From IMG/VR virus record IMGVR_UViG_3300049783_000569, positions 1 to 42,112 of that record: a stretch of 42,112 bases of DNA; one strand, given 5' to 3'. Origin of the DNA: a virus. A program made the position numbers and the translations under genes. Below, piece by piece: positions 33,868-37,627 of the stretch. The notes beneath the pieces are model-generated. The model saw nothing but the letters and a program-made list of their open reading frames with translations, ran no database searches and was not told the DNA's origin. Each line of letters starts with the position of its first letter. Positions within the stretch are counted from its first letter, which is position 1.

Positions 33868-36597
33868 TCATGCTTCCTTCACGGGCAGCACAAGGTCTGC
33901 GATGTTGCACCCTGCCTTGGCCATGCGCCCGAACCACAACGCCATGGACTCATCGTCCTGTTGGCGCGGCAATTCCTTCTGCAACCTGCGTTCTTCAAAG
34001 CGGATGGAAGTCTCAAGGGGCCCGGGGAGGTCCAACCACGGGCTACTCTCTGCCTCTGCCGTGAAGGTCACATCCAACTGCGGGACCGTCACCACCATGT
34101 CACGGTCGAGGATGGCAGTGGCGGCAGCAGCATCTTCGTTGCGCACCCGGAAGTACAGAGCATCGTGGCCCTGAATGACCAAGCCCGTGGTGGGGTCAGC
34201 CCCGATGAGGCCTGCCCGGGTCAGCGAGCGCAGTGCCTTGAACATGCCCATGTGGACAATGGCCGCGCCGCCAAACTGGACCTCTGTATTGATGACCGTG
34301 TTGTACTCTTCCCCGTTGGCGAAGTGCCGCTTGAGGTCCCACACCGTCTCTTGAATGAACCCACAGTCCCGGTACTTCTCAATCTGGTTGTCCCACCAGC
34401 GTTTAATCTCGGGCACAGCCTTGAGCCACCGCATGTGGATGAACCGAATCTCTGCCAGGGACCTGTGCCGATGGGCAGGTGACTGGATGATGATGCCGTG
34501 AATAGTCTTGAGCGAAGCCCCATACAGCGCACCATAGGTGAACGTCTTGATGAGGTCCCGCATGTCTTTGAACTTGCCCTTGCCCTTCTTGCGCGGGTCG
34601 GTCGGGGCCCCCTGGCGGTTCCAATATTCCTGGCCAAAGACCAGCTGGCCCGTGAGGTTGTGCGTGTCAATCTCATCGTCTTTGAATGCGTTGAGGTACA
34701 GCTTGGCCCCAGCGAGTGCAGCCAGGTAGCGGAGCTCCAGCTGGTCGTAGTCGATGCCGATGAACGTGTACCCATCGCCCGCGTAAAAGCAGTCCCGCAG
34801 GTAGTAGATGATGTTCTGGAAGTTGGGCCCGCTCGAGGACAGACGCCAGCCGACAGTGCCCGTGGCGTTCCAGTCTGGGTACATGAATCCATCCCACACC
34901 CACGGGCTTGAGGGATGCCACTTGTCAATGAAGTAGGACAGGGCTGTGCTGGCCTTGCGGTAGGCCCGGAGCTCATCGACGTACGCCTTGGTCGCAGCGG
35001 GCACAGTGGGGTCGCCAAGCAGCATCAGGAGCGCGCTGTCCTTGGTGCTGGCCTCGCCCGTGTCTGTGTACTCCCCGATGGGGCAGTTCCATGTGGTGTA
35101 CAGCAAGGCCTGCTGGGCTTGCACGGAGTTGGGGTTCATCTCGGGCTTACCCGACATCTGGCGCATCATGCCCGTGTGGAGTCGCTTGGCCTTCTCGAGT
35201 CTGACCTTGTGAAGCCCGCGGCGGAACTCATCGACTTCCAGTCCCAGCTTGTGCATGGAGACAGCCACACGCTGAACGCGGGTGCGCCTCTTGTACAGGT
35301 GCAGCTGGCCTTGGTCCCGAGCCTTGTCACGCACGATGGGCAGCAGCCGGGACGTGATGCAGATGTCTCGAGCACAGTAGAAGAACAGTTCCGCGTTGGT
35401 CCTGGCTGTGACCGCTGTGTGCTCTGACTTCCACGCGGGCGCATCGAGGTAGAAGGACGCCGCTGCGCCAAGGCCCTGGAAGTATTCGCTCATCCCCAAC
35501 TTCTGCAGCACCATCCCATCGAGGTAGAGCAGGCAGGTGACACCCAAGCGGGCTTCGATGACCATCCTGTCGTAGTAGCCGTTGTTCCACCCGCCCTTCA
35601 CGATGTCTGGTCTCACGAAGAAGCGGCGTAGAATCTTGAGTATCTTGACCCACTGTTCCTTCGTGTACCACTTGCTCCACTTCAGGTGCCGCTCACCGGG
35701 CTCAACGGACTCGAAGGGCACCACCATGGCCTTGTCCGCATTGCCGAAGCCGATGCAGCGCAGCACATCTCGGGAGGCATCGAAGACGGGCTTGTTGTCG
35801 TCGGTGAACTTGGATGCCCGGGTCTCCACGTCGTAGACCATGACCTTGCCAACGTGTTCTTCAATGAAGGCTTCGAGTTCTTCAGGGGTCGGGACCGTGA
35901 CCATGTCGGGCTCAACCCAGTCGAGCCGGCCATCGAAGTAGCGGAACGCCCGGGCCAGGTCCTTGCGGACGATGGGCTTCCACATGGGGTTGCGCTGCCA
36001 GTCGAGCCGAGTGGCGATGAGCAGCTTCCCATCTGCTGTACGGGTCGGGGCCCCACGGAAGGACTGCAGCGAGGGCCCGCGTTCAATGATGTCGGTGCCC
36101 AGTGCGGGGTTGCTGGTGCGTGTGCCCGTGGCCTTGATGGTGCTGGCCCCCAGGGCGATGACGTTGTCCACCTGGGCAAGTTCTGCATCGAGCCGCGGGG
36201 TGCAGCAGGTCTCGGGCGTAGGGATTGCTGCCTCACCCTTGCGGAGCCGTGCCCGGTTGCGCTTCTTCAGGACTGCGTGGAAACTCTTGGGGTCGTCGTT
36301 GGGGTACCGGCACGCAACAACGTAGGTCCAGTTCAGGTCGTGCCGGGTCTTACGCCCTTCCTTCTTGACCATCTGCAGGAGGTCAGCACCCGTGGCACCG
36401 ACGAAGGGGCGCGTCTTGAGGACTTCCTGCTTGCCCGGGGAGGGTGCAAGGATGACAGTCGGGGCCCCATTGAGCTCACCGGGCACTGGGTTGAACACGC
36501 CCAGCTTGCGCAGCTTCGTCCCCAAGGGGCAGAGTTCGCAGTTGGCTTTGTTCAGGCAGGCGACGGCGTCGGGCTGCTCGGTGGTGAGGCTCGACAT
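33868..36597 (-). CDS. Family A DNA polymerase fused to an N-terminal UDG4-like Fe-S domain
   Basis: A 909-residue replicative polymerase. Residues 1-230 look like family-4 uracil-DNA glycosylase with four cluster cysteines (C20, C23, C96, C131 or C132) and RPFVGATG, but the catalytic GEAPG-type motif reads APSPG and the HPS-type motif is not seen. The 3'-5' exonuclease has DVET (near 255), NNGYYD (near 340) and YCARD (near 408). The polymerase has motif A DYDQLELR (616-623), an O-helix RDLIKTFTYGALYG (R680, K684, Y688, Y692) and motif C HDA (811-813) where HDE is usual. I chose ATG 36597, two bases after the previous stop, over an upstream extension that overlaps the membrane gene. Confidence 0.88.
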   Translation of the reverse strand: MSSLTTEQPDAVACLNKANCELCPLGTKLRKLGVFNPVPGELNGAPTVILAPSPGKQEVLKTRPFVGATGADLLQMVKKEGRKTRHDLNWTYVVACRYPNDDPKSFHAVLKKRNRARLRKGEAAIPTPETCCTPRLDAELAQVDNVIALGASTIKATGTRTSNPALGTDIIERGPSLQSFRGAPTRTADGKLLIATRLDWQRNPMWKPIVRKDLARAFRYFDGRLDWVEPDMVTVPTPEELEAFIEEHVGKVMVYDVETRASKFTDDNKPVFDASRDVLRCIGFGNADKAMVVPFESVEPGERHLKWSKWYTKEQWVKILKILRRFFVRPDIVKGGWNNGYYDRMVIEARLGVTCLLYLDGMVLQKLGMSEYFQGLGAAASFYLDAPAWKSEHTAVTARTNAELFFYCARDICITSRLLPIVRDKARDQGQLHLYKRRTRVQRVAVSMHKLGLEVDEFRRGLHKVRLEKAKRLHTGMMRQMSGKPEMNPNSVQAQQALLYTTWNCPIGEYTDTGEASTKDSALLMLLGDPTVPAATKAYVDELRAYRKASTALSYFIDKWHPSSPWVWDGFMYPDWNATGTVGWRLSSSGPNFQNIIYYLRDCFYAGDGYTFIGIDYDQLELRYLAALAGAKLYLNAFKDDEIDTHNLTGQLVFGQEYWNRQGAPTDPRKKGKGKFKDMRDLIKTFTYGALYGASLKTIHGIIIQSPAHRHRSLAEIRFIHMRWLKAVPEIKRWWDNQIEKYRDCGFIQETVWDLKRHFANGEEYNTVINTEVQFGGAAIVHMGMFKALRSLTRAGLIGADPTTGLVIQGHDALYFRVRNEDAAAATAILDRDMVVTVPQLDVTFTAEAESSPWLDLPGPLETSIRFEERRLQKELPRQQDDESMALWFGRMAKAGCNIADLVLPVKEA

Positions 36598-36994: not shown

Positions 36995-37627
36995 TTACCC
37001 GAGTGCGTCAAGCGGGTCGAGGTCATCAGCCGGTGCTGCCTTGGCAGGTGCCTTGGCAGGTGCCTTGGCAGGTGCCTTGGCCTTCGGCTTGGCGGCTGGC
37101 TTCTCTTCTTCAAGCTCAATGTCGCCGTCGAGGTTGAGGTCATCTTCAGCAGGGGCCAGGTCGTTGGAGCCCGCTTCGACTGGCTCTGGGGGCTTGTAGT
37201 TCTCGATGCGCTCGGCATACTGGTCGGCTTGCAGGACGATGACTTCACCGTACTGACGGCCCAGGTCCACGTTCTTGGCCTTGTACTCAAAGGCAATCTC
37301 GCGGTTCAAGAAGTGCGCTGGCTTGATGGACTTGACCTTAGCCTTGACCGCTTCTTCCTTGTGACCACAGGCCATGTAGAAGGCGAGCCAGAACCCAAGG
37401 TTCTTGCTTGTGGGGGCCATCTGGGTCAGCCGCGCTGACTGTCCGATGCAGTTGTCATCGGTGCCCGACTTGATTGTGATGAAATAGATGGCTTGACTAT
37501 TGGGGCCCACGCTGGTGTCACCCACGCCAACAGAGGTGATGATGCCCTTGAAAAGCCCATCGGTGTCTAGGCGGGCGCCGGTTGCCGGCGTGGTGTCTTT
37601 GAAGTCTACGGGGAAGTTGAACGACAT
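36995..37627 (-). CDS. Single-stranded DNA-binding-like protein
   Basis: A 210-residue protein. Residues 1-150 look like a beta-rich OB-type domain (LFKGIITSVGVGDTS, AIYFITIKSGTDDN, EIAFEYKAKNVDLG, EVIVLQADQYAERI), followed by an acidic and KAPA-repeat linker and a short acidic tip (DDLDPLDALG), the layout of SSB proteins, whose acidic tip recruits partners. Its place between polymerase and recombination ATPase genes supports this. AAGGA lies upstream of the ATG. The exact family is not certain. Confidence 0.6.
   Translation of the reverse strand: MSFNFPVDFKDTTPATGARLDTDGLFKGIITSVGVGDTSVGPNSQAIYFITIKSGTDDNCIGQSARLTQMAPTSKNLGFWLAFYMACGHKEEAVKAKVKSIKPAHFLNREIAFEYKAKNVDLGRQYGEVIVLQADQYAERIENYKPPEPVEAGSNDLAPAEDDLNLDGDIELEEEKPAAKPKAKAPAKAPAKAPAKAAPADDLDPLDALG
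37038..37080 (-). repeat. 12-base tandem repeat encoding KAPA linker units
   Basis: GCCTTGGCAGGT is repeated three times with a partial fourth (written on the + strand). On the left-going strand it encodes KAPA-type units in the linker of the SSB-like protein. It keeps frame, so copy number can change linker length without disrupting the gene. Confidence 0.85.

Follow-up and report, generated by a model that had tools for sequence, protein, structure and literature searches.

Locus and domain architecture

The window, i.e., the whole stretch of DNA that was analysed, is a 42,112-base fragment from an IMG/VR virus record, and its minus strand carries a gene (33868..36597, with the ATG at 36597 and the stop at 33868) for a 909-aa fusion of a uracil-DNA glycosylase (UDG) domain, a 3′-5′ exonuclease and a family A polymerase (PolA). 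The UDG-superfamily N-terminus (aa 1-222, 35932..36597, minus strand, as are all features of the gene given below) is followed by the exonuclease domain (about aa 235-425, 35323..35895), which keeps D256, E258, D343, Y407 and D411, and then by the polymerase domain (about aa 430-855, 34033..35310), which keeps D616, R680, K684, Y692, H811 and D812 and for which a Pfam search of the 909-aa protein returned a DNA_pol_A match at aa 471-851 (E 4e-36). Indeed, D256, E258, D411, D616, K684 and D812 are invariant in our alignment (A6), i.e., the polymerase and proofreading residues are intact. With this architecture, the protein belongs to the UDG-PolA fusion polymerases, as a variant with an eroded glycosylase active site. 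The full-length model of the polymerase is a confident single body (pLDDT 87.2, pTM 0.84), which suggests that the UDG domain is held in a fixed position on the polymerase.

The gene lies among genes for a VapE-type helicase/primase, an SNF2-like helicase, a PD-(D/E)XK exonuclease, a Sak4-like recombinase and an AAA ATPase; this region therefore represents the replication block of the phage. Note that 36995-37627 (minus strand) encodes a protein of 210 aa with a linker rich in KAPA and an acidic end (DDLDPLDALG); its placement resembles that of a phage single-strand DNA-binding protein, and no family match was found for it.

Fold of the N-terminal domain

The N-terminal domain displays the alpha/beta fold of the UDG superfamily in its predicted structure. 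Pfam gave a PF03167 match at aa 44-155 (E 5.6e-6, 26.9 bits against a cut-off of 24.3), and the AlphaFold2 model of the domain, computed with 52 relatives, reached a mean pLDDT of 88.8 and a pTM of 0.86. Using Foldseek and VIA-align, the best match of this model was the UDG of S. tokodaii (4zbx, Z 21.1), followed by T. maritima UDG (Z 20) and TthUDG (1ui1, Z 19.5), with UdgX (Z 18-19) and then family 5 (Z 16.8) lower down. The first-pass annotation, which had proposed a polymerase fused to a UDG4-like domain and structure prediction against TthUDG as a check, is thus borne out as to the predicted fold. At the sequence level, the nearest NCBIfam UDG models are also archaeal or type-4, but all score far under their curated cut-offs (for TIGR00758, 31.7 bits against 125.3).

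When compared to family-4 UDGs (TthUDG 1UI0, TM0511 1L9G/1VK2 and 4ZBX), the domain shares the fold, the order of the four cysteines and the RG and PxxE landmarks, whereas it has lost motif 1, the Asn80 motif and motif 2, is fused to a polymerase and, between Cys3 and Cys4, carries a basic insert of 19 residues that family-4 UDGs do not have. Since the three defining catalytic features fail, we did not file the domain as a family-4 UDG enzyme despite its fold and Fe-S signature. At the boundary with the polymerase, W227 and P230 are conserved, and D213 is near-invariant.

Losses in the active site

Using Tth numbering anchored on the 1UI0 alignment, Glu41 of motif 1, Asn80 and His155 of motif 2 were all found replaced in the window. 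Motif 1, which reads GEAPG in active relatives, is reduced to A51-P-S-P-G55 (36433..36447) within the context LAPSPG, with Pro52 as the Glu41 equivalent and Ser53 in place of Tth G42. Tyr92 (36322..36324) occupies the uracil-binding Asn site (Tth N80), i.e., the Asn of the 'TNxxxC' motif preceding Cys3. In motif 2 (HPxxLLRNP in UDG4), the remnant T196-RLDWQRNP204 (35986..36012) has two residues deleted and no HPS or HPA, and Arg197 stands for His155. The first reading had correctly reported both the change of GEAPG to APSPG and the missing HPS-type motif, but had overlooked the third loss, from Asn to Tyr92. Among the other pocket positions, Tth N89 aligns with Asp101 (adjoined by Asn100), and both E58 (Tth E47) and F65 (Tth F54, which stacks on uracil) are retained.

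In TthUDG, the substitutions E41Q, N80A and H155S lower k2/Km about 900-, 40- and 2,500-fold, respectively (PMC5387724). The changes E41→P, N80→Y and H155→R should therefore leave the window protein without useful uracil excision, and from the combined loss of three key residues we infer that this activity is gone. As for the source of these losses, an assembly error or a pseudogene was considered and rejected: a second contig (L001) overlaps the window over 14,242 bases with 10 differences, none of them in the polymerase gene, and such identity argues against an assembly error.

The clade of the window polymerase

Scans of IMG/VR that used polymerase-domain motifs as patterns, and no part of the UDG domain, recruited more than 70 full-length relatives (27-39% identity), so that the cysteines conserved among them (see below) are not a selection artefact. 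As a clue to the host, genome contigs yielded only two full relatives, both in proteobacterial metagenome bins (L180 and L181). In a tree of 76 sequences built from polymerase columns only, the window is sister to a 49-member group (SH-aLRT 97) and sits on a long branch (2.25).

On this tree, just 7 of the 217 domain columns are invariant, and the cysteines account for 4 of these (hypergeometric P 3.9e-7), whereas the E41, N80 and H155 sites changed 12, 13 and 11 times, close to the domain column median of 14. Scoring the 76 sequences for E or D, N and H at these sites, 21 are intact, 25 lack N only, 10 lack H only, 16 lack both N and H, and 3 lack E and N; the loss of all three occurs once, in the window. 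Many clade members thus retain E/D and H, which means that erosion is partial across the clade. Since the window polymerase lies on a long branch, its triple loss could also be part of a general fast change. As judged from the aligned sequences, active-site erosion with kept Fe-S cysteines is a feature of the whole clade, which comprises mostly uncultured phages, to a varying degree. Within this clade, the alignment of UDG-PolA fusions that the first-pass annotation had proposed as a further check shows unchanged cysteines beside drifting E, N and H sites.

The nearest relative of the window domain (L135, IMG/VR 3300024344_000029, 44% identity) shares GKQEV, ACRYPND and PTPETCCxPRL with it and, as it keeps GEAPG, Asn and HP, represents the intact counterpart of the window protein: GEAPGKQEV stands against APSPGKQEV, TNTVACRYPND against TYVVACRYPND, and TLHPQSV against TRLDWQ.

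Selection was estimated by Nei-Gojobori dN/dS on pairs from the clade (the window itself has no close non-identical relative, the L001 gene being identical), and pairs were excluded as saturated once their dN exceeded about 0.3. In unsaturated pairs, the UDG domain displayed dN/dS values of about 0.05-0.12, equal to those in the exonuclease and polymerase domains. Even when N and H were missing from both sequences of a pair (L157/L092, L097/L100, L093/L094 and L146/L150), values were 0.04-0.22 for the domain vs 0.06-0.18 for the polymerase. These low values indicate that the domain is not decaying and that selection keeps it where excision should be impaired.

Fe-S cysteines and the basic insert

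The predicted Fe-S ligands are Cys20 (36538..36540), Cys23 (36529..36531), Cys96 (36310..36312) and Cys132 (36202..36204), which follow the C-x2-C...C...C order and show no change on the clade tree. The first reading had named C20, C23, C96 and C131/132; all are present, and since C132 is invariant over the 76 relatives while C131 is A or C, C132 is the likely fourth ligand. In an ordinary family-4 UDG, Cys→Ser changes cost only about 40% of excision, so that the cluster is dispensable for this activity, and it is thought to steady a loop (PMC5295032). A cluster that is not needed for excision, together with cysteines that outlast catalysis, argues for a role in stability or loop holding. By analogy with what has been proposed for other replication Fe-S proteins, the oxidation state of the cluster might instead tune the DNA affinity of the polymerase; that the four ligands never vary, whatever the state of the catalytic sites, would agree with such redox control, but a structural need predicts the same invariance, and we consider this explanation extremely improbable.

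Between Cys3 and Cys4, a basic helix is inserted (aa 103-119, 36241..36291), which is modelled with confidence and lies at the site of the UdgX R-loop. An insert of 16-20 residues with a pattern like [DN]PK.[YF]LA.L[KR]..NR[KR]R occurs at this place in almost all clade members, with no conserved His among them. In addition, the net charge is +14 for the window domain and +8 for the clade median, compared to -3 to +5 in 7 of the 8 other fusions checked (the eighth, L010, reaches +13). The positive net charge and the basic insert only suggest a contact with DNA.

UdgX of M. smegmatis (6AIL and others) likewise has an insert with basic residues at this site, between ligands 3 and 4, but its R-loop (KRRIH) bears a His nucleophile and its motifs read GEQPG and HPS, whereas the window domain has none of these and its insert is longer and helical. 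A UdgX-like covalent trap was accordingly rejected, as the insert has no conserved His and APSPG replaces GEQPG. More broadly, the domain could still be a glycosylase of another chemistry or substrate, with a UdgX-like or MUG-like use of other residues, since catalytic residues differ among UDG families, the insert falls where UdgX bears its nucleophile, and other clade members retain E/D and H. We consider this very unlikely for the window protein, in which motif 1 has no Asn, Asp or Glu, motif 2 has no His or Asn, and the insert offers no conserved His.

Other UDG-polymerase fusions

UDG-PolA fusions as such are already known (PaBG gp205, SPO1 gp31 and phiLo), and what is new is a clade with eroded sites. 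The UDG-exonuclease-PolA architecture was published for gp205 of Pseudomonas phage PaBG and for the Lupandier group, and this type of fusion was proposed to help accurate replication (PMC7412058). These proteins share the architecture of the window protein, but no test made here places them in its clade. The family A polymerase of the Thermus phage phiLo (PDB 9QHS, for which our literature search found no publication) likewise has an N-terminal UDG domain with four cysteines; unlike the window domain, it keeps GEAPG, TNVSMC and HPSF and has no basic insert. Note that 9QHS was not among the best 50 matches to the full-length window model, which were Klenow-type chains.

Most of the about 39 other PolA fusions that we collected keep E/D, Asn and HP. 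Two of them (L013 and L072) have lost Asn and HP and kept the four cysteines, and seem to have reached the pattern of the window separately. The reverse pattern was observed in L021, L024 and L025, which have lost the Fe-S cysteines and kept HP, GEAPG and Asn. SPO1 gp31 (L088), with a UDG-like N-terminus, exonuclease and PolA as in the window, also shows the reverse of the window's losses, since its cysteines are gone, motif 1 reads QENPF, a Ser stands at the Asn position and HP is kept.

The domain retained in fusions without cysteines shows that the Fe-S site is not always required for folding, and this bears on the idea of a pure architectural relic, in which the domain would buttress the exonuclease/polymerase body or its folding with no DNA contact, the Fe-S site being needed to fold. 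The conserved boundary residues W227 and P230, the near-invariant D213, the purifying selection and the high-confidence single-body model are all consistent with such a relic. However, SPO1, L021, L024 and L025 still keep the domain without its cysteines, and the inserted basic helix and the strongly positive charge also speak against a relic, so that we regard it as unlikely.

Fusion is not restricted to PolA: DnaE-type polymerases of Nickievirus and Rhizobium phages also carry a UDG domain, here at the C-terminus and joined to the replicative polymerase independently. In two such proteins, from Pseudomonas phage ZY21 (L089) and Rhizobium phage V1VFA-S (L090), the UDG-like domain at the C-terminus of the polymerase III alpha subunit has eroded motifs.

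Modified bases and other uracil-related genes

The first-pass annotation had pointed to UDG-like N-termini on the polymerases of SPO1-type phages with modified thymine. The precedent in domain architecture is sound, but the tie to modified thymine is not supported. The SPO1 gene lies near a dUMP hydroxymethylase gene, whereas PF00303 (thymidylate synthase/dUMP hydroxymethylase) was detected neither in the window nor in any of 45 clade records (these records being incomplete, such absence is not proof), and the SPO1 domain shows the reverse losses. Among 28 records of other fusions, 3 had PF00303 (E<=0.001) and 25 did not. Modified thymine was thus rejected as the reason for the domain. More generally, the window, the 45 clade records and the 5.6 kb by which L001 extends beyond the window end, a segment with no Pfam match, yielded no base-modification gene. 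As a separate observation, 7-deazaguanine synthesis genes lie a few genes upstream of the UDG-PolA gene in Brevundimonas phage StAshley (L175).

In each of 46 records, the fused domain gave the single UDG match, i.e., no compensating stand-alone UDG was detected, and a dUTPase was found in none of 48 records, which are fragments, so that its absence is not proof.

Archaeal family B polymerases have a uracil pocket and provide the model for a non-cutting reader of bases, a role of the kind that the first-pass annotation had suggested. By this analogy, the remodelled pocket would bind a flipped template base (uracil, deaminated or modified) and stall or redirect the polymerase. The retained F65 and E58, the repeated joining of UDG to replicative polymerases (N-terminal on PolA, C-terminal on the DnaE type) and the fused domain being the sole UDG of its record are consistent with this idea. 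However, Tyr replaces the Asn that contacts N3 and O4 of uracil, and Pro replaces Glu41, which holds O2 through its main chain; moreover, the Asn site varies freely in the clade (N, Y, H and T), unlike a conserved reading pocket, and this variability argues against a conserved uracil pocket. As base-modification genes were also not found in the window or clade records, we give a base reader little probability.

Role of the domain in the polymerase

Altogether, frozen ligands beside drifting chemistry are best explained by a fold and an Fe-S loop that serve the polymerase directly, and we consider that the domain is probably a fixed, Fe-S-stabilised, non-cutting part of the replicative polymerase, with a DNA-holding or structural role. 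A family-4 UDG would have arrived already fused to the polymerase and would then have lost base excision, through E41→P, N80→Y and H155→R in the window phage, while keeping its fold, the Fe-S site with four cysteines and, in the Fe-S loop, a basic helix specific to the clade; with this helix, the domain may grip the template or the exiting DNA. More tentatively, this could apply to a widespread clade of replicases, in which a pseudo-glycosylase would have turned the UDG4 fold to Fe-S-dependent DNA sensing or clamping at the fork by means of a new basic helix, the cluster having outlived the chemistry; such an extension is possible, although we consider it rather unlikely.

What the [4Fe-4S] cluster does in family-4 UDGs has been unclear because cysteine mutations hardly affect uracil removal. 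Here, evolution appears to have done the opposite experiment, since catalysis was lost stepwise while the four cysteines stayed unchanged in a domain that is fused to a replicative polymerase. The intact L135 protein and the graded partial losses offer a direct test system for functions of the cluster and of the UDG fold beyond excision. It also follows that the annotation 'UDG-domain polymerase' is not proof of built-in uracil repair.

Additional gene arrangements

Two further arrangements were observed among the fusions. In L027, L037 and L060, UDG-PolA genes occur in tandem, the first with VGEFPS, TTKxPC and a kept HP and the second intact, and a division of labour between these paralogues is possible. 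In L228 and L229 (IMGVR 3300036870_000026 and 3300036869_000017), the polymerase ORF is about 1182 aa long and an intein-like start, CLDAATPVLCVGDRILTVDENG, comes right after GKPF, so that the UDG domain seems to be interrupted by an intein-like element.
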